Source of the DNA: a virus
Strand: one strand, 5' to 3'
Length of the DNA: 64,000 bases
IMG/VR virus record: IMGVR_UViG_3300037010_001702
Location: 175,442 to 239,441 of that record
A program made the position numbers and the translations under genes. The notes under the pieces are model-generated. The model saw nothing but the letters and a program-made list of their open reading frames with translations, was not told where the DNA came from and searched no databases. Of this stretch, positions 9,721 through 52,731 are shown one piece after another. How positions within the stretch are numbered: position 1 is the first letter of the stretch; each line of letters opens with the position of its first letter.

Positions 9721-10779
9721 ATGAAATGTATTCTGCGAATAACCGATGAAGTATGGTGCCAGATATCTGGTATAATGCCTGGGCATGTAGAGACATTAGT
9801 AAAAGCATTTTCTGTTCACCCAGAAGGTTATTTTTTTATGCCTGCCTTCAAGCTTGGGAGATGGAACGGATATATCCAATTTTATTCTCCAACAGGTAAG
9901 ACCTATGTCCGTCTATTAGATCAGGTTATCCCTTACTTAGAGAAGTGGGGATATGACATTGAGCTGATAGATAATCGAAAGTACTTTGAACCTCCTGTAG
10001 TTGGCGGTAAGCTTTTGACTATTGACCCTGCGGGCATTGCTCTCACTGCTTCTGGGACTAACATAATGGGCGATGATGTTGTCGTTGGCGGAAAGGTATT
10101 CAATCTCCGCCCATACCAATTACAGTGTGTTCAGATTGCTGTAGAGAATGGAAGTGGTTTCATTATCGCAGGAACTGGTGCAGGCAAAACCTCCATCACA
10201 GGTGCTCTCTCCTACTACTATGCCAATGCCGGCTATAAAGTAATCACGATTGTTCCATCCGGTGATCTTGTAGACCAAACAGCTGAGTGGTATGAACTCC
10301 TAGGTCTAGATGTAGGCACCTATTCTGGTACAGAGAAGGACCTTGACCACATGCACATCGTTGCAACGTGGCAGGCAGTACAGTATAATCCTACAATCAT
10401 GCATGACTTTCAATGTCTGATTTGGGATGAGTGTTTTTGTGGTGAGACTCCTGTATTGATGTCTGACATGACGGAAAAGAAAATAAAAGACGTTCGGGTC
10501 GGTGATTATGTTTTATCAATGGACGCAAACGGAAATTTCGAGCCTTGTAAAGTGTTAAAAACTCACATTAATTTACCAAAATCTAAGGTAAAAATGCTTC
10601 GGCTAACGTTTGATAATGGACGTTATTTAGATGTTACCGAAAATCATATTTTCTATCTAAAAGATGGTAGAAAGGTTATGGCAAAAGATTTAACTGAGCG
10701 TGATGATATATGTGAATTCTCCTTAAATAAAATGAAAGCTCATGGAGATAAAGTGAATGAAGAAGAAAATCATAAATGA
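9721..10779 (+). CDS. uvsW: UvsW helicase N-part fused to N-half of a split intein
   Basis: 352 residues. Residues 1-237 are the N-extein: an N-terminal UvsW-type domain, Q-motif-like LRPYQLQ near 129 and Walker A AGTGAGKTS at about 150-158. The extein ends at LIWDE. Residue 238 starts a class-1 intein N-half (115 aa): block A CFCGETPVLM and block B TENHIF with the Thr-x-x-His signature. The rest of the intein and helicase is encoded at 11643. Trans-splicing would rebuild WDE-CHGIKA, restoring the DECH box (motif II). UvsW unwinds branched DNA and R-loops and controls origin use in T4. Confidence 0.9.
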   Translation: MKCILRITDEVWCQISGIMPGHVETLVKAFSVHPEGYFFMPAFKLGRWNGYIQFYSPTGKTYVRLLDQVIPYLEKWGYDIELIDNRKYFEPPVVGGKLLTIDPAGIALTASGTNIMGDDVVVGGKVFNLRPYQLQCVQIAVENGSGFIIAGTGAGKTSITGALSYYYANAGYKVITIVPSGDLVDQTAEWYELLGLDVGTYSGTEKDLDHMHIVATWQAVQYNPTIMHDFQCLIWDECFCGETPVLMSDMTEKKIKDVRVGDYVLSMDANGNFEPCKVLKTHINLPKSKVKMLRLTFDNGRYLDVTENHIFYLKDGRKVMAKDLTERDDICEFSLNKMKAHGDKVNEEENHK

Positions 10780-11674
10780 TTTACTAGGAGATGAATTTTT
10801 AATAGATATTAAGTTTTTACCTAGAACCGGATCAGTCAGATTGCCTTTTGATTCAGCTGTATTTTCATGTGGTCGCAAGCTTAATAAAAAAGAGTTTGGT
10901 AAATTTTATAGACTATTAATGCAAGGTCATCTTGAAGAAGCTAGGACTTTTGTAGCAGCTCCACAAGAATTTGAAAAATTAAACAAACAACGAAGGCAGA
11001 TTGCTGCTTCTAAAGGTGGTAGGGCTGCCATGTTAGATCCGAAAAATTATGTTTGTAATAAAAATGGTACGCATTGGAATAGAGGGACAGTTGGATTAGT
11101 TAAGGCATGGAACAAAGGATTAACTAAAAATACTGATGTTCGATGCAAAAACATCTCTATCGCTAAAATGGGAGCAAAAAACCCAATGTATGGTAGACCA
11201 GTATCAGCTTTAACGCGTGAAAAGTTATCATTAAAAGCAAAGCAAAATATTGAATCAGGTAAATGGACCCCTAATACGTTTAATTCTAGAACAAGAAAGC
11301 AACTTAAATTTAGAGATAAACTTTTCAGAAGTAGCTGGGAGGCTCTTTTTTATCAAGCATTTCCACAAGCAGAATACGAAAAGATTAGAATACCGTATTT
11401 TACTGATAAGCATCACGTTTACATTACCGATTTTAAAGTTGGTAATGTAATTTATGAAATAAAACCTGAGAAGTACGTAAAATTAAAACAACCCATTCTT
11501 GATATAGTAGCACGCTGGTGTGTTAGCAATGGATTTGAATTTGTTATATTAACTGAATTTTCTTTAACAGAACTAATACCAAAACACACTGTTAATTTTA
11601 GTGAATTTGATGAAAATACTGAAAAACTATTAAGAGGATTATATGCATCTGTTGAAAAAAGAAGAAATAGATAA
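10757..11674 (+). CDS. Free-standing homing endonuclease, Vsr-like with NUMOD3
   Basis: 305 residues lying between the two halves of the split-intein uvsW and overlapping both (22 and 32 bases). The middle contains AKNPMYGRPVSALTREKLS, a NUMOD3 DNA-binding module. The C-terminal nuclease core has SSWEALFYQAF (Glu), VYITDFKV (Asp) and IYEIKPEKY (E-x-K), a PD-(D/E)xK arrangement like the Vsr-type homing nucleases seen in fractured phage genes. It presumably cuts intein-less uvsW alleles and spreads the cassette. AT-rich compared with the flanking helicase, consistent with acquisition. Confidence 0.8.
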   Translation: MKKKIINDLLGDEFLIDIKFLPRTGSVRLPFDSAVFSCGRKLNKKEFGKFYRLLMQGHLEEARTFVAAPQEFEKLNKQRRQIAASKGGRAAMLDPKNYVCNKNGTHWNRGTVGLVKAWNKGLTKNTDVRCKNISIAKMGAKNPMYGRPVSALTREKLSLKAKQNIESGKWTPNTFNSRTRKQLKFRDKLFRSSWEALFYQAFPQAEYEKIRIPYFTDKHHVYITDFKVGNVIYEIKPEKYVKLKQPILDIVARWCVSNGFEFVILTEFSLTELIPKHTVNFSEFDENTEKLLRGLYASVEKRRNR

Positions 11675-12500
11675 GCCAGAAAAAGTTTATGATTTAACTG
11701 TTGATAAACACCACAACTATATTGTTAATGGTGCTGTTGTTTCGAATTGTCACGGTATCAAAGCTACTGTTGCGCAGAAACTTGTCAATGATAATGGTAA
11801 GCACATTGCATTCCGCTTTGGCGTAACAGGAACATTCCCTAAACCAGAGTCTGAAAAGCTTTCTCTTATTACTTCAATTGGGCCTATCCTCAAAGAGATT
11901 CCTGCTGCGTGGTTAATTGACCATGGTTATCTTGCTAAGGTTCAGATTCAGCCTGTTGAATTGAATGAGAGTTATATCGATGAAGACTTTCCTGACTATG
12001 CTGCTGAGAAATCCTTCTTAGCTAAGAGCACTAATCGAATGGAGATCATTGCTGATTTGATCATCTCTCAATGTGCAGCGCATGGCAATACTCTTGTCCT
12101 GGTTAACTCTATTCCATTTGGTGAAAAGTTAGCTAAGCTGATTAAGGGTGCTGTCTTTCTTTATGGCGAATCACCAAAAGACTTGCGCCGCGAACATTAT
12201 GATATGTTTGAAGAGAATGATGATATAATAGTAATAGCCTCAGCAGGTATTGCTTCAACAGGCCTCTCGATTGACCGTATTTTCTGTATGATGTTTGTAG
12301 ATGCAGGTAAATCCTTCATCAAAGCTATTCAATCAGTAGGGCGCGGTCTTCGTATTGGACATGACAAAGATTCTGTTATGGTTGTCGATGTTCACTCTAA
12401 ACTAAAATGGGCAGTGAGGCACTTTAAGGAACGAGTGAAGCACTACAAAGAAGCTGGATACCCAATAAACAAGAAACAAACTTTGAAAGTAAAAGGTTAA
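11643..12500 (+). CDS. uvsW: C-half of split intein fused to UvsW C-part
   Basis: 285 residues. Residues 1-35 form the intein C-half, with block F VYDLTVDKHHNYIVNG and the end VVSN before Cys36. The penultimate residue is Ser rather than the usual His. The C-extein starts CHGIKATVAQKLV and holds helicase motif III (FGVTGTFP) and motifs V-VI (IIVIASAGIASTGLS, QSVGRGLR). N- and C-exteins together give about 487 residues versus 503 for T4 UvsW. AGAGGATT precedes the ATG. Confidence 0.9.
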   Translation: MHLLKKEEIDKPEKVYDLTVDKHHNYIVNGAVVSNCHGIKATVAQKLVNDNGKHIAFRFGVTGTFPKPESEKLSLITSIGPILKEIPAAWLIDHGYLAKVQIQPVELNESYIDEDFPDYAAEKSFLAKSTNRMEIIADLIISQCAAHGNTLVLVNSIPFGEKLAKLIKGAVFLYGESPKDLRREHYDMFEENDDIIVIASAGIASTGLSIDRIFCMMFVDAGKSFIKAIQSVGRGLRIGHDKDSVMVVDVHSKLKWAVRHFKERVKHYKEAGYPINKKQTLKVKG

Positions 12501-12960: not shown

Positions 12961-12993
12961 TACCCCTTCCCAATATGATAGGGGGGGGGGGGG

Positions 12994-13001
12994 TATTTAT
13001 A
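12994..13001 (-). promoter_or_regulatory. Minus-strand late promoter
   Basis: TATTTATA on + is TATAAATA on the minus strand, correctly placed to drive the decayed antisense homing endonuclease. On the + strand the same bases flank the AGGAG site of the gene at 13014. Confidence 0.45.
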
Positions 13002-13013
13002 GGAGAAACTACT

Positions 13014-13532
13014 TTGCAGATATTACCCGAATACAATAAGCCCTATTTGATAGACTCTTTAACAGCTCCCGTAGTTGTGAAGCATAATTGGATCTTCAAT
13101 GCAGCTCTAACAGATTTTATGTTGGCGCCTATTACCTATTTGGAAGAAACGACTGGCGCTGTCATTAAAGTTCGAATCAACAACAGCGAGTTCTGGGTTC
13201 CAGCTACGTGGAACATCCTCGTTACTGAACGTGAGACATACCAAATCGATACCGTCGCTATCAAGGCCTGTGCTTCCACCGAACACCTGGCGTTTAGTTT
13301 TTCTCCTGATGAAATGAAGCTGCGCACCCTCGAGGTAATGGTCATTGATTACGCTGACTCCATGGCGCTAGTTCACCCGATGATCAACAAGGGCACTGCA
13401 CTCGTTCATCCTGTAGGACCTACCCCTATCCTTAACAATGGTAAGCCAATCCAGCTTTCGGTGGTAATAGGTCCTCACGATCTTTACAAACACTTAGCGA
13501 ACAAGGTGATTGGCGACATCTTCTCATATTAA
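13014..13532 (+). CDS. Hypothetical protein, 172 aa, TTG start
   Basis: The best start is TTG at 13014, 6 bases after AGGAGAAA; the frame upstream runs into the poly-G tract and is unlikely to be coding. The protein has alternating beta-like segments and ends VVIGPHDLYKHLANKVIGDI. Layout and position before the endolysin suggest a conserved phage protein, but I cannot assign a role. Confidence 0.65.
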   Translation: MQILPEYNKPYLIDSLTAPVVVKHNWIFNAALTDFMLAPITYLEETTGAVIKVRINNSEFWVPATWNILVTERETYQIDTVAIKACASTEHLAFSFSPDEMKLRTLEVMVIDYADSMALVHPMINKGTALVHPVGPTPILNNGKPIQLSVVIGPHDLYKHLANKVIGDIFSY

Positions 13533-13550: not shown

Positions 13551-13610
13551 GTAAAGTCCGCCATAAATATTCTATCAGATAATGATAGGAGTTTTTATGG
13601 CGGACTTTAC
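13551..13610 (+). promoter_or_regulatory. Late promoter inside a hairpin that sequesters the endolysin start
   Basis: A perfect 17-bp stem pairs 13551-13567 with 13594-13610; the second arm contains the endolysin ATG (13597). An inner hairpin (CTATC 13572-13576, GATAG 13584-13588) overlaps the AGGAG ribosome site (13587-13591). The late promoter core CATAAATA (13562-13569) lies in the first arm. Read-through early RNA would hide the start codon; late RNA beginning just past the promoter lacks the first arm and exposes it. This is the same logic as T4 gene e. Confidence 0.8.
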
Positions 13611-14178
13611 AGATGATTTCCTTCTAGCGTTTAACCACGCTATGAAGTATGAGGTAGGTGGATTTTGGAACCCAAACGATCCTGATGTGCAAGCAGGTAC
13701 TATTGGGTCACAAGACTTGAATCGTAAGGTTGGTTATACGAACGATCCAGTTGATCCAGGCGGTGAGACAAAATTCGGTGTCGCTAAGAGTGGCAACCCT
13801 GATGTCGATATCGCAGCCCTTGATTTGAACGGCGCGATGGACATCTACTCTAACAGATACTGGACCGCGGGTTCCTGCGATAAGCTGCCTGGAGCCATTG
13901 CCATCATTCACTTTGATGGTTGTGTCAATCATGGAGTTGGCCGCGCTGTTAAGTTTCTTCAATCTGCCATTGATGCTACACCTGACGGGCAAATTGGACC
14001 TAGAACTCTAGCAGCAATTGCTGGTGCAGACCAAGCGACCGTAATAAATTCAATCGCTCAACAACGTACCGCATTCTACAACTCCATTGTAGCTGCAAAG
14101 CCAGCACAAGCTAGATTCTTAAACGGCTGGTTAGCACGCATCAATGATGTGTCAGCCTTCGCTCTTTCCAAGATTTAA
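13597..14178 (+). CDS. Endolysin, glycosyl hydrolase 108 with peptidoglycan-binding tail
   Basis: 193 residues. N-terminal GH108 muramidase-type domain: catalytic Glu in KYEVGGFW (about residue 19), then NDPVDPGGETKFGVAKSG, IYSNRYW and FDGCVNHGVGRAVKF. The C-terminal PG_binding_3-like part begins with PDGQIGPRTLAAI. It cleaves cell-wall glycan at lysis. The start is at 13597 (MADFTDDF), not the in-frame ATG at 13582. Expression appears restricted to late transcripts by the hairpin described at 13551-13610. No signal peptide, so a holin is expected (candidates at 19496 and 23726). Confidence 0.9.
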   Translation: MADFTDDFLLAFNHAMKYEVGGFWNPNDPDVQAGTIGSQDLNRKVGYTNDPVDPGGETKFGVAKSGNPDVDIAALDLNGAMDIYSNRYWTAGSCDKLPGAIAIIHFDGCVNHGVGRAVKFLQSAIDATPDGQIGPRTLAAIAGADQATVINSIAQQRTAFYNSIVAAKPAQARFLNGWLARINDVSAFALSKI

Positions 14179-14273: not shown

Positions 14274-15926
14274 ATGTCAAATGAGATTGGTGTCGTTAAA
14301 CGCAGCGGCAAAAAAGTTCCACTCAACATCGAAAAGTGGCAAGCTCAAATCCAAAAAGTATGTGAGGGACTCGATGGTGTATCTCCCTCCATGATTGAAA
14401 TTGCGGCTCAAGCCCACTTCTATGATGGGATGGAGACAAGAGAATTAGATCGCATGGCTCTTCGAGCAATGATCGATTTAATTGACGAAGAAGAACACCC
14501 AGATACCGGTAATATCAACTATCAATATGCTGCTGGAAGACAGCGCGTATCAATGCTTCGTAAAGATGTTTATGGAGATTACGCCCCACCATCCCTTTTG
14601 AGTATCGTAAAGAAGAATGTAGAGTTGGGTCTCTACACCCCAGAGCTGCTCACGTGGTACTCTGAAGATGAATGGAACCAAATGGAGAAATTCATTGACC
14701 ATGACAAAGATGAAATACTACCAATCGCAGCTGTTGAACAGCTTATTGAAAAATACCTGGTTCAAGATCGCTCAAAGAGCAACTCGGTTGTTGAGACTCC
14801 ACAAGTCCGCTACATCGTCGCAGCAGCTACTGCCTTCCATGCAGAGACCAAGGACAGAATGCGCTGGGTTAAGGACTTCTACAACTCTAGTTCAGACGGA
14901 CTATTCACTCTTGCTACACCAGTCCTTGCCGGGCTTGGAACAAAAACTAAGCAATTCAGTTCATGTGTGCTTATCAAGTCTGACGACACCCTCAAATCAA
15001 TCTTTGCAAGTGGGCAAGTCATGGCCGACTATGCTGCTAAACGTGCGGGAATCGGCCTCGATGTTGGCCGCCTTAGACCATTAGGTGCGCCCATTAGAGG
15101 AGGAGAAGTTAAGCACACTGGATACATTCCATTCCTCAAGAAATGGTTCGGAGACCTTCGTTCGTGCTCTCAAGGTGGAATACGGAATGCGTCTGCCACC
15201 ATCAACTTCCCAATTTGGCATTATCAATTTGACGATCTTATCGTCCTAAAGAATAACCAAGGTACTGACGAGACACGCGTTCGTCACATGGACTACTGCG
15301 TAGTCATGAACAAGTTCTTCTGGAAGCGCTTCAAGCAGCAGGGCGTAATCACCTTCTTCGATCCAAATGAAGTGCCTGATCTTTACGAAGCCTTCTATGC
15401 TGACTCAGTTCGCTTTGAAGAGCTCTACGAGATGTACGAAGCGCGCACTGATCTTCGCAAGAAGGTAGAGCCAGCAGAAGTCGTCATTAAGGATTGGTTG
15501 ATCAAAGAACGTGGTGACACTGGTCGTTACTACATTCTGAACATCGACAACGTTGCTAATCAAGGTCCTCTTGATCCATCTGTTCACCCAATCTACCAAA
15601 CAAATCTCTGTGTATCGCCAGACACTATTATTAATTGCACGGTTGACGGTACTAAAATGGATATTTCTATATTAGAGTTGACCAGCCTATTCAGCATGAA
15701 TAAAAAAATAAAGGCACTTAGTAAAAATGTAGCTACTGGTGAAATATCGTACGAGTCAGTTACAGCTGCTGCTAAAACTGATATCAATCGCAAACTACTG
15801 AAAATTACTGACTCTGTTACTGGAAAATCGATTAAAGTTACAGCAAATCATAAAGTATGGACTAAAAATCGAGGCTGGGTAGAAGCTGGTTCTTTAAAGT
15901 CAGACGATTTACTAGACCTGATTTAA
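14274..15926 (+). CDS. nrdA: Ribonucleotide reductase large subunit N-part fused to N-half of a split intein
   Basis: 550 residues. N-terminal ATP-cone (VVKRSGKKVPLNIEKW), class Ia core with SSCVL (Cys231) and CSQGGIRNASATINFPIWH. The N-extein ends at residue 445 in YQTNL. Residue 446 begins the intein (CVSPDTII; block B VTANHKVWT), 105 residues long. The C-part is at 16730. Splicing would rebuild YQTNL-CTEIMQH, equivalent to the E. coli SNLCLEI with active-site Asn437, Cys439 and Glu441. It reduces ribonucleotides to deoxy forms. GGAGAAAAAC precedes the ATG. Confidence 0.93.
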   Translation: MSNEIGVVKRSGKKVPLNIEKWQAQIQKVCEGLDGVSPSMIEIAAQAHFYDGMETRELDRMALRAMIDLIDEEEHPDTGNINYQYAAGRQRVSMLRKDVYGDYAPPSLLSIVKKNVELGLYTPELLTWYSEDEWNQMEKFIDHDKDEILPIAAVEQLIEKYLVQDRSKSNSVVETPQVRYIVAAATAFHAETKDRMRWVKDFYNSSSDGLFTLATPVLAGLGTKTKQFSSCVLIKSDDTLKSIFASGQVMADYAAKRAGIGLDVGRLRPLGAPIRGGEVKHTGYIPFLKKWFGDLRSCSQGGIRNASATINFPIWHYQFDDLIVLKNNQGTDETRVRHMDYCVVMNKFFWKRFKQQGVITFFDPNEVPDLYEAFYADSVRFEELYEMYEARTDLRKKVEPAEVVIKDWLIKERGDTGRYYILNIDNVANQGPLDPSVHPIYQTNLCVSPDTIINCTVDGTKMDISILELTSLFSMNKKIKALSKNVATGEISYESVTAAAKTDINRKLLKITDSVTGKSIKVTANHKVWTKNRGWVEAGSLKSDDLLDLI

Positions 15927-15927
15927 T

Positions 15928-15979
15928 GTGTGCCCCGTTATTTCTCTATAAATAATAGTACAGAGATTATGGGGCACAC
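15928..15979 (+). promoter_or_regulatory. Late promoter inside a hairpin that sequesters the endonuclease ribosome site
   Basis: GTGTGCCCC (15928-15936) pairs with GGGGCACAC (15971-15979), extended by a weaker inner stem. The TATAAATA late core is at 15947-15954 in the loop. The GGGG of the ribosome site is in the 3' arm, just before ATG 15981. Late RNA starting downstream of the promoter would lack the 5' arm. I-TevI of T4 is controlled in the same way. Confidence 0.75.
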
Positions 15980-15980
15980 T

Positions 15981-16736
15981 ATGAAAGATGTAATGTACAG
16001 AGTTTATTGTTGGACAAGTAAAAGTTCAGGCAAATCTTATATTGGATACACTGGAGATGGTGTTTATTTTAGATGGTCGAAACATGTTTTGAGGGCAACA
16101 ACTGGTGGAAAGACATATTTTGATAAGGCAATAAGAAAACATGGTGTAGATGATTGGGTATGCAAGATCATTTTTGATACTCATTTGGAGCATGAAGCTA
16201 AACTAATTGAAATTAAAATGATTAAAGAACTGGATACTTTAGCTCCTAATGGATATAATTCAACACCTGGTGGCAGTGGTGGCAATACATGGTTCGGCGA
16301 AAATGTTGCTGCAAGAAAAGAAGTGTTGAGCAAGAGTAACTCTGGCAGAAATAATCCAAGGGCAGCCACAGTAATAGATGATGAGCTACTTGTTGCAGCA
16401 ATTGCTCTGTGGAAAGATAATGGATGCAATTGGATTCAGTCAAAATGGTTTGATTTGTGTAAGTTGAAAAAGTGGCCAACGCACCTGGTTAAATGGAGAT
16501 TTTCTAAATTTGGTGGGGGCCTCAGGGGATTGAAAGCTGCAATGCTAGATAAACTAAAGAGTGATGGATATGATATTTCAGAAATTAAATATTCTGCAAC
16601 ACCTGCCCACCGCAGCAAAGTAAGCAAACAGAATTTAGGTAAAATTTGGGTAACAGATACTGCAGCTAACAAATCTTATTTAGCTTTTGCTACTGAATTA
16701 AAATTAGACACTATTATTAAAGGCAGAAAATGTTAA
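15981..16736 (+). CDS. GIY-YIG homing endonuclease between nrdA halves
   Basis: 251 residues. The N-terminal GIY-YIG domain reads MYRVYCWTSKSSG then SYIGYTG, with Arg in FRWSKH, AIRKHGVDDW and catalytic Glu in EIKMIKELDTLAPNGYN followed by TPGGSGG. The C-terminal half is a DNA-recognition region. The start is at 15981 because GGGG is correctly spaced; in-frame GTG 15930 and ATG 15969 lie inside the hairpin. It overlaps the C-terminal nrdA part by 7 bases. It presumably mobilises the split-intein cassette. Confidence 0.85.
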   Translation: MKDVMYRVYCWTSKSSGKSYIGYTGDGVYFRWSKHVLRATTGGKTYFDKAIRKHGVDDWVCKIIFDTHLEHEAKLIEIKMIKELDTLAPNGYNSTPGGSGGNTWFGENVAARKEVLSKSNSGRNNPRAATVIDDELLVAAIALWKDNGCNWIQSKWFDLCKLKKWPTHLVKWRFSKFGGGLRGLKAAMLDKLKSDGYDISEIKYSATPAHRSKVSKQNLGKIWVTDTAANKSYLAFATELKLDTIIKGRKC

Positions 16737-17818
16737 TTATAGAAGAATTAGATGATGTAAGTGATGTTTTTGATATCACTGTTGAAAACACTCACACTTT
16801 TTATGGAGATGGAATATTGGTTCATAACTGCACAGAAATCATGCAGCATACCCGTCCATTCCAAACAATTGAAGATCCGGAGGGCCGCATTGCTCTATGC
16901 ACGCTTGGCTCCATTAATTGGGGTTCATTCCGCAATCCAGAAGACATGAAGCGTCCAGCTGTAGTTCTTCACAGAGCTCTTCACAACCTTCTTCAGTACC
17001 AAGACTTCCTGTCAGTGCATTCTGAACTTCACAACAAGGAATTTGAACCTCTTGGTATCGGCATCACCAACCTTGCATACTGGCAAGCTAAGCGTAAGCT
17101 GAAGTATGGTGAAGCAGATCAACTAGCTGAAGTAAAGCGCTGGATGGAACACCAATCCTTCTACTTGATCGAAGCTTCTGTCAATCTTGCTAAAGAGAAA
17201 GGTCCTTGCCTTGCATCTGCTCAGACACGTTATGGTCAAGGTATCTTTCCTTGGGAGCTTCGTGCTGAAGGTGTCAATGAACTAACTGACTTCACACCTT
17301 CTGAAGATTTGGATTGGGAAGGTCTTCGTGCTAAGATGAAACAGTATGGCATTCGTAATGCTACAAACATGGCAATTGCTCCAGTTGAATCTTCTTCTGT
17401 TGTTATCAATTCAACAAATGGTTTCAATCTTGTTAAACAGCTGATCATCATTAAGGAATCCAAAGCTGGTGCATTCGCGCAAGTTGTTCCTGAGTATCGT
17501 AAGCTGAAGAATCATTACCAGCTGCTTTGGGATCAAAAGGATTGCATCGAGTACATCAAGACTGCTGCAGTTTTGCAAGTCTATGTTGATCAAGGTATCT
17601 CTACTGATACATTTTACTCTGGAAAGTATTTCCCAGAAGGAAAGATTCCTGCTACATTGATTGCTAAGAACCTTATGCTAGGAGCGAGATGGGGGATAAA
17701 ATCTTGGTATTACGATTTGAGAGATAAGCAAGGATCAAAGGAGATGCTTCAAGAAAGTTTTGTTCCTGTTCAAGCTGAACCCGAAGTTGAAGAATATTGC
17801 GAAAGCTGCATACTGTGA
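16730..17818 (+). CDS. nrdA: C-half of split intein fused to ribonucleotide reductase C-part
   Basis: 362 residues. Residues 1-33 are the intein C-half (block F VFDITVENTHTFYGDG, end GILVHN), with the normal His-Asn before Cys34. That Cys is both the +1 splice nucleophile and the catalytic thiyl cysteine of the reductase. The C-extein (329 residues) includes TLGSINWGSF, MAIAPVESSSVV, SWYYDLRD (radical-transfer tyrosines) and a C-terminal CESCIL redox pair. Reconstituted length is about 774 residues (E. coli NrdA 761). Confidence 0.92.
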   Translation: MLIIEELDDVSDVFDITVENTHTFYGDGILVHNCTEIMQHTRPFQTIEDPEGRIALCTLGSINWGSFRNPEDMKRPAVVLHRALHNLLQYQDFLSVHSELHNKEFEPLGIGITNLAYWQAKRKLKYGEADQLAEVKRWMEHQSFYLIEASVNLAKEKGPCLASAQTRYGQGIFPWELRAEGVNELTDFTPSEDLDWEGLRAKMKQYGIRNATNMAIAPVESSSVVINSTNGFNLVKQLIIIKESKAGAFAQVVPEYRKLKNHYQLLWDQKDCIEYIKTAAVLQVYVDQGISTDTFYSGKYFPEGKIPATLIAKNLMLGARWGIKSWYYDLRDKQGSKEMLQESFVPVQAEPEVEEYCESCIL

Positions 17819-19997: not shown

Positions 19998-20039
19998 TGT
20001 TCCCGGATAAATAACTTATTACTAAGTTATCCGGGAACA
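19998..20039 (+). promoter_or_regulatory. Hairpin with late promoter before the long fibre gene
   Basis: TGTTCCCGGATAA (19998-20010) pairs with TTATCCGGGAACA (20027-20039), with CTTA/TAAG inside. GATAAATA (20006-20013) is a late promoter core on the 5' arm. The 3' arm carries GGGAA, the probable ribosome site of ATG 20045. Same layout as at the endolysin; it also suits termination of the nrd operon. Confidence 0.6.
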
Positions 20040-26861: not shown

Positions 26862-27794
26862 ATGACACTCAAAGATGAAACACTTGAAATTGATACCCAA
26901 TTACGTTCTCACTTGCAAAAGATTACCGGCAAGCAGGATAAAGCTTTGGAAGACATTATTTTCAATGTGTCCGGATGCATTTCAAGAACAAATATTTCTG
27001 TAAAAGAATATATTGCTGATTTTCAATCTGACAAAATTTTTAATCCTGATTGTTTGCTGCTTGACAATGTTGAAATGTTTAAGTATTTCAACAAGAAATA
27101 TATTGAACTTGCTGCCCATTTATTTGCACGTCGATCGACTGGTCTCGGTACTCCTACTGCAGCTTGTGGAGAGGGAGAACTTATGGCAATCGTTTGCTCG
27201 CCAAGAGTAAAAATTTCTAAAAAGAAGAACGAAGGTGATTTGAAAGTTGATAATAAAACAATTGAACTCAAAGGTGATGGCGTTAGAGTATTTTCAACTA
27301 AATCTGGAAATTCTTTCTATAAAGAAATGATGGCATTGAGCAAACTTTACAACTTCATACCAAATGAAGTTAATAAAGGTCGTACAGCATTTGAACCTTG
27401 GAAAGACGGAAAGACTGGTGAAATGTGGTCTGCACAATTTAAACAATCTGGACCAAAAATTGCTAAAGAGTTTTTGATTAAGCTTATGAATGCTACAGGT
27501 TCGGAATTCTCAGCAGCATCAATTGATAACTGTTTCAAGAATGGAATTTTTTCATCGCATCAATTGCGTTGTGAAATTATAAAATCATTTTTTAGAAATA
27601 CAACAAAGGAATGGGATGCTTTCACTTGTATAAAGGATGGTATTATTCGTTCTGTCAGCCCTGATGCTACATCATTTGACGCACTTGTTGATGCTGGTGT
27701 TATCATTCCAGGATCAAATGAGAAGGATACAGTTGGCAACTATTTTCGTATTTTTAACAACAATGATCTTGGTTGGTACTTCAGGTTCGTATAA
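26862..27794 (+). CDS. Restriction-endonuclease-like protein
   Basis: 310 residues from the ATG preceded by GATGGAGA. The centre reads ACGEGELMAIVCSPRV, then KNEGDLKVDNKTIELKGDG. The Glu, then GDL...IELK, is the catalytic PD-(D/E)xK arrangement of type II restriction enzymes. Two adenine methyltransferase genes follow immediately, so this is a plausible phage-borne restriction-modification set. It could degrade host or competitor DNA while phage DNA is methylated. The stop lies inside the 27781-27820 palindrome. Confidence 0.65.
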   Translation: MTLKDETLEIDTQLRSHLQKITGKQDKALEDIIFNVSGCISRTNISVKEYIADFQSDKIFNPDCLLLDNVEMFKYFNKKYIELAAHLFARRSTGLGTPTAACGEGELMAIVCSPRVKISKKKNEGDLKVDNKTIELKGDGVRVFSTKSGNSFYKEMMALSKLYNFIPNEVNKGRTAFEPWKDGKTGEMWSAQFKQSGPKIAKEFLIKLMNATGSEFSAASIDNCFKNGIFSSHQLRCEIIKSFFRNTTKEWDAFTCIKDGIIRSVSPDATSFDALVDAGVIIPGSNEKDTVGNYFRIFNNNDLGWYFRFV

Positions 27795-27820
27795 CAATAA
27801 ATATTGTTATACGAACCTGA
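27781..27820 (+). promoter_or_regulatory. Perfect 19-bp-arm palindrome with late promoter at its centre
   Basis: Positions 27781-27799 and 27802-27820 are exact reverse complements around two bases. AATAAATA (27796-27803) at the centre is a late promoter core. The left arm contains the stop of the endonuclease-like gene; TTAAGGA follows, 14 bases before the methyltransferase start. It probably ends one transcript and starts another. Confidence 0.65.
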
Positions 27821-27833
27821 TTAAGGACAGTAA

Positions 27834-28919
27834 ATGATAAATGAAAATCAAAAAGTTGGTGATCTTGGGCAACACTGGACACCTCGCGATGTTGTCCAGA
27901 CGATGGTAAAATTGAAGAAAAATAAGGGTCTCACTCTCGAGCCATCAGCGGGTTCCGGCAGGTTTGTTGAAGTTTTACCAGATTGCATTGCTATTGAAAT
28001 AGATGCATCTGTAGTGCCAGATAATCTAAAGCACCAATATCTGATAAGCAATTTCTTCGATGTAGATGAAGATCAGAAGTTCGACACTGTAATTGGTAAT
28101 CCCCCATATGTTGCTGGAAAACTTTTAACCCCAGATTGGTTCAATAATTGGACTGGTGTTTTGCCACGCACTGCTAATGCATATTTGCATATCATTGATA
28201 AGTGTATAAATCATTTGAATGATAAGGGTGAAATAATTTTTATTGTTCCATCATCATTATTTTCAGATAGTAGCAGAGGGAAAGAACTTCGTAAGAAAAT
28301 GCTTTCTCTTGGTGCATTTACTGATGTTATTTTTTGTCACGAACAGGTAGAATGGGAAAATGCTGCTGTAGATACTTTGATCTTCAGATGGCAAAAGGGT
28401 TTAAAACAGAAAAAAGTTAAGACTAATCTTGGAGATAAAATTCTTTTTGAGAGCAATGGTTTTACTTGGTTGATTGATTTTATTCCTGCTGGAACAATGG
28501 GTGAATGGTTTAAAGCTACTGTCGGCAGCGCACCTCTGCGCGCTGCTGTGGAAGCTAAGCGAGGTGGTGAGTACATTAAAGAAGGAAAGATTGTTCTCAT
28601 TGAAGAAACAGAATGTGATAAATGGCCGAGGGTTCATCATACTCCAGTAGGTGATAAACTATTCTATGTTGGCGGACCTATTCGTAGATGGCCTGTTTTT
28701 TTTAGTGGAACTTCAGGAAAGCACTTAGATAATGCTTTGTTGCCAAAACATAAAATTGATATTGTAATGGGAGCAGCTCTGCTTAATGAGTGGTTTAAAG
28801 CTAATGGTGAAGCGCTATCACTTATTAAAGGTGGTAGATGGATATGCGGCGTGAAGCAATTTGAAAACTGCCCTATAACAGAAGAGATGAAAGAAGCATT
28901 ATCTGCTTTATTGGAGTAA
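27834..28919 (+). CDS. N6-adenine DNA methyltransferase (NPPY type)
   Basis: 361 residues. SAM-binding motif I LEPSAGSGRFVEVLP near residue 40, acidic motif II IAIEIDAS, catalytic GNPPYVAG, and a C-terminal recognition region. This is the gamma-type layout of restriction-associated methylases such as M.TaqI. It directly follows a restriction-endonuclease-like gene, whose DNA-protection partner it is expected to be. Late promoter at 27796. Confidence 0.85.
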   Translation: MINENQKVGDLGQHWTPRDVVQTMVKLKKNKGLTLEPSAGSGRFVEVLPDCIAIEIDASVVPDNLKHQYLISNFFDVDEDQKFDTVIGNPPYVAGKLLTPDWFNNWTGVLPRTANAYLHIIDKCINHLNDKGEIIFIVPSSLFSDSSRGKELRKKMLSLGAFTDVIFCHEQVEWENAAVDTLIFRWQKGLKQKKVKTNLGDKILFESNGFTWLIDFIPAGTMGEWFKATVGSAPLRAAVEAKRGGEYIKEGKIVLIEETECDKWPRVHHTPVGDKLFYVGGPIRRWPVFFSGTSGKHLDNALLPKHKIDIVMGAALLNEWFKANGEALSLIKGGRWICGVKQFENCPITEEMKEALSALLE

Positions 28920-29914: not shown

Positions 29915-29922
29915 AATAAATA
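29915..29922 (+). promoter_or_regulatory. Late promoter (AATAAATA)
   Basis: Late core flanked by AAGAAT and ATTCTT (6-bp inverted repeat), 23 bases before the ATG at 29945. Confidence 0.5.
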
Positions 29923-29944
29923 CATTCTTGATTAAGGATGTTAA

Positions 29945-30604
29945 ATGAAGTTGCAAGAGATCAAAACTTTTGAACATAGAACTGGACCGCACGTTGATAT
30001 TGCTTCTAAAGAAACTCAACTTAAGTGGTTGAATGCTGGCACACGCATTGACAATCCCACTGGATTTGAAGGTAAGAGTGCTGTTCTCTTTCTGAATAAG
30101 GAAGGCCCCAACAACCATATCTTTGTGATTGTTGAATGGGCAAAGCAGAATGAACCTATAGGATATTGTGTACTTCACAAGACTGGGAAGTGGTGGGAAG
30201 TAGATGATGCTAACCTTGATCCCAGTTTTAGAGGTAAGGGGTTGATGTCGAATGTTTTATTCACACTTAGCAAGTCAGGTTATTCTTTAAAGAGTGGAGA
30301 TTTGCTTAGCGAGGATATGGAGCGTGTTTGGCAAACTCTAGGTAAAGAAGGAGCTAAGGTTCTTGATGCTGAATCTGGCAAACTTAAATCTTTTGATAAC
30401 AGCCCAATAGGTTCTGGTGATCTTATTTCAGGTATACCTCCTAAATATTACTGGGTTATGGAAGGTGAAGGTGCTAGCACTCTCTTCCATACTGGCGGTG
30501 CAGATAAACTAGCAGAATGTAAAGATTACTATCTTTCTGGTGGGCAATATGGCACTAATGGTACACTAGGTTTAAAGGTAATACTTCTATATGCTTCTGC
30601 TTGA
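29945..30604 (+). CDS. GNAT-like protein with MKLxEI leader
   Basis: 219 residues. Starts MKLQEIKTF; DPSFRGKGLMSNVLF followed by LLSEDMERVWQTL matches the acyl-CoA loop of GNAT acetyltransferases and the equivalent PPFRGKQIIENAYL of the protein at 33500. A strand-rich N-terminal part (HIFVIVEWAKQ) precedes it. Late promoter and TTAAGGATG ribosome site. A virion-packaged modifying enzyme is a possible role given the common leader, but unproven. Confidence 0.6.
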   Translation: MKLQEIKTFEHRTGPHVDIASKETQLKWLNAGTRIDNPTGFEGKSAVLFLNKEGPNNHIFVIVEWAKQNEPIGYCVLHKTGKWWEVDDANLDPSFRGKGLMSNVLFTLSKSGYSLKSGDLLSEDMERVWQTLGKEGAKVLDAESGKLKSFDNSPIGSGDLISGIPPKYYWVMEGEGASTLFHTGGADKLAECKDYYLSGGQYGTNGTLGLKVILLYASA

Positions 30605-51974: not shown

Positions 51975-52082
51975 GGGTAAGAATTGGTGGATTGGTGGAA
52001 TGAATAACTTTTTGCTAAATAAAGAAGATGCAGAAAATAGAGGATTGAAATGAGGACGGATAAATTGTTCATTTTCAAAAAC

Positions 52083-52420
52083 AGCGTAAACTTAGATTAG
52101 GAAATGATTGTGACACCCGGGGGCAGTGCCCGGCAGGTCCACCAAAAGAACTCTAAATCTTACAGAAATGTTTGAACAGGTTTGGTATCCCAGATCCCTC
52201 TTGCATAGGTAAAACTGATAACAAAGACAGATATGCCAAGAGTTCTTTTAATGGGCTTGACACAGGATCGACCACGAAAAAAGTATTTGTTTGAGCGCTC
52301 GTCAGGCGATCGACGTTAAAGAAGCAAAACTATAAACGCAAACGACAAATTTGTGATGGCTGCCTAATTGGCTTGCCGGAGTTTTTGAGGGTTTATCTTA
52401 GCAACAGAATTAAACCCTCA
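52083..52420 (+). ncRNA. ssrA: Circularly permuted (two-piece) tmRNA
   Basis: The acceptor piece comes first. The T-arm stem CCGGG (52117-52121) pairs with CCCGG (52129-52133) around a 7-nt loop GGCAGTG; then the acceptor 3' strand CAGGTCC, A and CCA (52134-52144). After a 108-nt intervening segment the 5' half starts with GGGCTTG (52253-52259). These 7 bases pair fully with CAGGTCC and give the G3.U alanine identity pair. GACACAGGATCGACC is the D-arm analogue. P2-type pairings join the pieces: CACGA with TTGTG, ATTT with AAAT, GTTTG with TAAAC, CGCT with AGCG. The tag frame is at 52338-52367, and a 9-bp hairpin (GAGGGTTTA/TAAACCCTC, about 52387-52418) follows. tmRNA with SmpB rescues stalled ribosomes and tags nascent proteins. 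Processing would excise the intervening loop; the outer ends are uncertain. Confidence 0.9.
52338..52367 (+). other. tmRNA proteolysis-tag reading frame (ANDKFVMAA)
   Basis: Resume codon GCA at 52338, then AAC GAC AAA TTT GTG ATG GCT GCC TAA. With the charged alanine the tag would be AANDKFVMAA. The AND start is shared with E. coli (ANDENYALAA) and the AA end is the ClpXP-type degron. TATAAAC just before the resume codon corresponds to the frame-setting region. Confidence 0.9.
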
Positions 52421-52446
52421 CCTTCATTTCGCAAAGGATAAGAATA

Positions 52447-52731
52447 ATGGATATGGGCGAAATTTCACAGCTGGAGCTGGATTTACTTTTGCTGTTCTAC
52501 ACATACTCTAATCAGTTTGGAACTGTTGATATTGACTTCTGTGCCAAGTTCGCCGCCGATAAAATGGGTGTCTTCATTTTGAAGCAGCCCTTCCAATTTA
52601 CTCAAGAGCACCTTGACTGTCTTATGGACAACGGATTAGTTCCGGACACACGCGAACTTCTAACTGTCATCCCACTTAACAGACCAAAGATAAAAGCGAG
52701 AAGAGTTAGAAAGCCCAAGGAATCTGGTTAA
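52447..52731 (+). CDS. Hypothetical protein, 94 aa
   Basis: GCAAAGGATAAGAATA precedes the ATG, 27 bases after the tmRNA hairpin. Hydrophobic helix near the start (LELDLLLLFYTYSNQFG), basic C-terminus (RPKIKARRVRKPKESG). No family recognised. Confidence 0.55.
   Translation: MDMGEISQLELDLLLLFYTYSNQFGTVDIDFCAKFAADKMGVFILKQPFQFTQEHLDCLMDNGLVPDTRELLTVIPLNRPKIKARRVRKPKESG

Follow-up and report, generated by a model that had tools for sequence, protein, structure and literature searches.

A T4-type late promoter motif within a predicted hairpin that covers the start of a GH108 endolysin gene in a large T4-related phage

Described late-promoter hairpins and the endolysin locus

In the leader of gene e of bacteriophage T4, which encodes lysozyme, the ribosome-binding site is concealed by a hairpin whose 5′ arm contains a late promoter (McPheeters et al., 1986, as reviewed in PMC3014915). 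The corresponding leaders of T-even relatives are listed in the same 2010 review (PMC3014915). The same lock is described for the homing endonuclease genes I-TevI, I-TevII and segB of T4 and mobE of Aeh1, which lie inside early or middle genes (PMC2988022).

The stretch analysed here, referred to as the window, comprises 64,000 nt and forms the end of a virus contig of 239 kb; the endolysin leader, the genes around it and the further locks described below lie on its plus strand, and positions are those of the window unless the contig is named. The genes follow one another in the order SSB (gp32-like), UvsX, UvsY, UvsW, a phrog_11279 gene, endolysin, NrdA and NrdB, which is a T4-type replication and nucleotide block. 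The genes uvsX, uvsY and uvsW are thus upstream of the endolysin gene and run in the same direction, as does the adjacent phrog_11279 gene (12975–13532), whose place next to the endolysin gene is conserved in many relatives. A terminator scan of the plus strand gave no terminator-like site between uvsW and the endolysin gene. The phrog_11279 gene also follows a helicase gene in Xanthomonas phage XacN1 and Stenotrophomonas phage RAS14, where no recognisable endolysin comes after it.

The endolysin (13597–14178, 193 aa) was identified as a member of the GH108 family, as had been predicted, by its Glyco_hydro_108 domain (Pfam, E=1.4e-16), the conserved GGE motif (G55, G56 and E57 are invariant) and a PG_binding_3 domain. 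The original prediction also regarded it as not homologous to T4 lysozyme, and this holds at the level of sequence: no similarity to T4 lysozyme was detectable by BLASTP (E=4.4), and Pfam gave GH108 only.

Two neighbouring genes have an unusual layout. Both uvsW (9721–12500) and nrdA (14274–17818) are split into three reading frames that overlap or adjoin one another, in the order N-terminal half with the intein start, homing endonuclease, and C-terminal half with the intein end; the endonuclease is TnsA/NUMOD3-like within uvsW and of the GIY-YIG type within nrdA. This layout resembles the split-intein 'fractured genes' of Dassa et al. (2009), as cited in PMC6892783. The contig also carries a tmRNA gene (52051–52458) with the tag ANDKFVMAA, detected by ARAGORN.

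The start of the endolysin gene is enclosed in the predicted structure exactly as originally claimed. A perfect 17-bp outer stem is formed by GTAAAGTCCGCCATAAA (13551–13567) and TTTATGGCGGACTTTAC (13594–13610), and the ATG (13597–13599) lies in its 3′ arm, which consists of the start codon region and codons 2–5. An inner hairpin pairs TTCTATCA (13570–13577) with TGATAGGA (13583–13590), including one U–G pair, and its 3′ arm covers most of the Shine-Dalgarno sequence AGGAG (13587–13591). The motif CATAAATA was likewise located in the 5′ arm of the outer stem, at 13562–13569. The leader RNA folded with a z of −6.9, none of 200 shuffles being equally stable, and a perfect stem of at least 17 bp with a loop of at most 40 nt did not occur when the dinucleotides of the entire 64 kb were shuffled 20 times. 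A second in-frame ATG lies upstream (13582), within the inner hairpin and without a Shine-Dalgarno sequence; the relatives favour the start at 13597.

The motif is of the T4 late promoter type. Since T4 numbering puts its first base at −13, it spans −13 to −6 and the predicted start of late transcription is 13575. This motif deviates from the T4 consensus at −13, a position at which changes are tolerated in T4, and Aeh1 has a/gC at −13/−12 (PMC2988020); the forms GCTAAATA and ACTAAATA of some relatives fit the Aeh1 pattern. A late sigma factor of the gp55 family is encoded elsewhere on the contig (contig positions 131554–131928, E=9e-30), and a gp55 homologue was present in 9 of 14 related records. 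The sequence ATAAATA occurs at 81 sites on the contig, and an automatic rule linked 38 of these to the start of a gene downstream; a control with the reversed pattern was discarded, since reversal leaves the motif unchanged.

The locus shares with T4 gene e the concealment of the ribosome-binding site by a hairpin, a late promoter motif in its 5′ arm, about 34 nt before the ATG, and an endolysin as the product. Unlike T4, the product here is a GH108 enzyme without sequence similarity to T4 lysozyme, the stem is unrelated in sequence, longer (17 bp) and extends into codons 2–5, there is one late motif and not two, and the gene neighbourhood is different.

Energy required to expose the translation start

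We calculated the opening cost, defined as the free energy for unfolding the initiation region (−14 to +3), both for the read-through leader and for a leader with its 5′ end at the predicted late start. With the endolysin gene the cost was 21.6 kcal/mol in the read-through leader, against a null value of 8.7 +/- 2.9, and fell to 4.6 kcal/mol in the late leader starting at 13575. Almost the same result was obtained for starts from 13573 to 13577 and for every upstream length tried. The lock and its release are comparable to those of T4 gene e, for which the same calculation gave 16.2 and 4.7 kcal/mol.

When the calculation was applied without tuning to 84 kb of T4, drops of more than 9 kcal/mol were seen only for I-TevII, I-TevI, e and gene 49, all of which are documented users of a late promoter within a hairpin (PMC3014915, PMC2988022). 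The T4 capsid and tail genes in these 84 kb gave no such drops, and soc was missed. A computable signature thus finds four known T4 genes without training.

Computed in this way, the endolysin start is sequestered in RNA initiated upstream, while the motif and the predicted start are so placed that the predicted late transcript is without the 5′ arm. The logic of T4 gene e, which the original prediction had transferred to this locus, is strongly supported, on computational grounds, by the placement of the motif, the gp55 homologue and the finding that only the read-through leader is locked, as well as by the T4 positive controls and by the conserved arrangement with compensatory changes in relatives described below.

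Related endolysin loci and the co-variation of their stems

We compared 57 non-redundant GH108 endolysin loci, 55 of them belonging to the window's subfamily (at least 44% identity), the others being Pseudomonas phage Milchi and one viral-contig relative of Milchi. The motif NNTAAATA was present shortly upstream of the start in 54 of the 57 genes, and the hexamer TAAATA was nearly absent farther upstream. A lock was called when z was at least 2 in comparison with shuffles of the removed 5′ segment. By this measure, 32 of the 39 endolysin genes behind a same-direction gene were locked (the remaining 7 were below the threshold), as were 4 of the 15 at divergent loci, for part of which mirrored promoters account. 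For other late genes of the window's genome z was around zero, with 5 of 37 reaching 2. The orientation of the upstream gene was called automatically, but two loci were reassigned to the same-direction class after the scores had been seen, L061 because of its annotation and L112 owing to an antisense GIY-YIG-like gene in between; without this reassignment the counts are 30/37 and 6/17, respectively. The tree of the loci requires about five changes of orientation, and the three supported independent pairs agreed with the expected link in 2.5 of 3 on average (p 0.25); with only three such pairs, the link between orientation and lock beyond kinship is not significant.

Mirrored late motifs (ACTATTTATC ... 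GATAAATAGT), about 10–20 nt apart between head-to-head late genes, were seen upstream of the endolysin at seven loci (L018, L021, L023, L028, L038, L049 and L106) and possibly represent a bidirectional late promoter. Since mirrored late promoters alone yield complementarity, we set the divergent loci aside as carriers of the device. At L112 (L014) the antisense GIY-YIG-like gene, perhaps a recent insertion, lies directly upstream of the endolysin gene and the lock is intact. In the GH108 genes of the Pelagibacter phages HTVC008M and Mosig no comparable lock was found.

The arrangement is shared by the GH108 endolysin leaders of two cultured Pseudomonas phages, Milchi (PQ464597) and Astolliot (OM982621). 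In these leaders CCTCCGACTA/TGGTTGGAGG pair around ACTAAATA, and the opening costs of 21.2 and 18.2 kcal/mol drop to 3.2 kcal/mol; a gp55 gene was found in Milchi. Their endolysin is about 39% identical to that of the window over the shared part and has RNA ligase and NAD genes as neighbours, and the stem lies over the Shine-Dalgarno sequence. The device is not named in the annotation of either phage.

The stems of the relatives vary in position and in letters, many of them having only 6–10 bp. Some pair promoter-proximal letters with the Shine-Dalgarno region, as in T4, and others clasp the first codons. Because the stems differ in place and shape, we used a swap test instead of a single consensus structure. 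It was found that each gene's own 5′ segment locks its own start more strongly than borrowed segments do (mean 14.2 against 7.5 kcal/mol), and none of 20,000 permutations was as high as the native combination. Single comparisons point in the same direction. When the window is compared with L002 and L153, four base pairs in its outer stem are changed on both sides, reaching codons 2–3, which is supporting but not decisive evidence, since the alignment has three rows and the structure was taken from one of them. Between L117 and L127 a silent change of TAT to TAC is matched by an upstream change of A to G, and between Milchi and L065 (65% identical) the hairpin is kept with different letters. 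A MAFFT alignment of the promoter-proximal stems was not counted because it misplaced the 3′ arms. As judged from these sequences, this is the pattern that selection on pairing would leave.

These comparisons also bear on the suggestion in the original prediction that the likeness to T4 reflects convergence or an exchange of regulatory cassettes. Exchange is disfavoured, as no stem sequence is shared with T4, and stem letters differ even between close relatives with the pairing retained, which argues against the transfer of a fixed cassette. Repeated local origin with co-evolution of the arms fits better.

Mode of action, alternatives and further locks

The computed anatomy and energetics of the leader, together with the conserved arrangement, the co-variation and the sigma gene, make it highly probable that a cis-acting RNA lock makes translation of the endolysin depend on where the transcript starts. 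Messages running in from the upstream same-direction genes would hold both arms; with both arms present, the start codon and the Shine-Dalgarno sequence would be buried and ribosomes unable to load. Late in infection, the gp55-type sigma would bring RNA polymerase to CATAAATA within the 5′ arm, and a transcript from about 13575 would be without the 5′ arm of the stem and without most of the 5′ arm of the inner hairpin, so that the exposed start could be translated. By analogy with T4, from which the timing of the upstream genes is assumed, we would expect read-through before late time, an actual start at the predicted site, and effects on translation and on the timing of lysis.

Long perfect stems are plausible substrates of a double-strand-specific nuclease, and the stem could accordingly be an element of RNA processing or stability (RNase III-type cleavage or protection of the 5′ end) to which the translational lock is incidental. 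We consider this very unlikely, because the feature that the relatives conserve is the occlusion of the translation start and not the length, position or letters of the stem.

There is a similarly slight chance that the lock is real but is opened by a trans-acting factor, by temperature or by upstream ribosomes, and not bypassed by a late start. Thermosensors and translational repressors also work by structures that sequester the ribosome-binding site. In nearly all relatives, however, the late motif is within the 5′ arm or adjoins it, and the late leader is no less open than those of ordinary late genes, with median costs of 3.6 and 4.2 kcal/mol, respectively; moreover, the sequences and stabilities of the stems vary widely and contain no common binding motif.

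A role of the inverted repeat as DNA, either as an operator at the late promoter or as a terminator, might be suggested by the position of the promoter within the repeat and by a AATAAATA palindrome at 27796 that covers no ribosome-binding site. This is still less probable, as the arms vary freely with compensation and show no conserved site, and the stem is neither followed by a T run nor listed by the terminator scan. That the structure is a by-product of chance or compositional complementarity between late motifs, Shine-Dalgarno sequences and mirrored divergent promoters, as is seen at divergent loci with mirrored late promoters (L038, L049 and L106), can practically be dismissed, since the lock was not reproduced by shuffles, by swaps between loci or by other late genes of the same genome, and the upstream gene at the window's locus is co-directional.

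The class of mechanism is known; new is its presence on an endolysin family without detectable similarity to T4 lysozyme. A search of the open-access literature found the device described neither for GH108 endolysins nor for these large phages, which is weak evidence. A device known from a handful of T4 genes seems to occur across GH108 endolysins, with compensatory co-evolution, in mostly uncultured large phages, and this suggests that the leader RNA of lysis genes, and even their first codons, are shaped by selection against premature lysis. Milchi and Astolliot are cultured systems in which the lock is testable.

Further locks were found within the window. The second (15928–15979) has an 11-pair stem (15928–15938/15969–15979) around TATAAATA (15947–15954) and precedes the homing endonuclease of the GIY-YIG type (ATG 15981) that lies within the split intein of nrdA; its opening cost falls from 21.5 to 5.2 kcal/mol (z 5.4). 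It is like the endonuclease leaders of T4 and Aeh1, which belong to group I introns or free-standing genes, whereas the endonuclease of the window resides in a split intein and its stem is unrelated. A GIY-YIG endonuclease of L120 has the same device with an unrelated stem. The third lock (19998–20039), a 13-bp stem (19998–20010/20027–20039) with GATAAATA at 20006–20013, stands after nrdB and before a tail-type gene of 1196 aa (ATG 20045), and its cost drops from 19.4 to 4.3 kcal/mol (z 9.9). A fourth, weaker one (29915–29947), with AATAAATA at 29915–29922, precedes a GNAT-like gene whose ATG is at 29945; here the cost falls from 10.6 to 1.2 kcal/mol (z 4.2).

We are inclined to think that the lock is a recurrent rule in T4-related phages, including jumbo phages, and not a peculiarity of gene e. 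Late genes embedded in early or middle operons of the same direction (those for endolysins of different families and for homing endonucleases, and some tail genes) may repeatedly build their own lock, with arms that co-evolve with the start and first codons, and may tend to lose it beside a diverging upstream neighbour.

Two other hairpins were noticed. At 27775–27834, upstream of a methyltransferase-like gene (27834), the motif at 27796 occupies the centre of an 18-bp palindromic hairpin that is almost perfect, which is not the same lock because the ribosome-binding site is uncovered. At L134 a hydrophobic, holin-like protein of 69 aa without a PHROG match (L134:5929–6135) is preceded by a late motif and a lock-type hairpin, and its opening cost drops from 16.3 to 3.9 kcal/mol.
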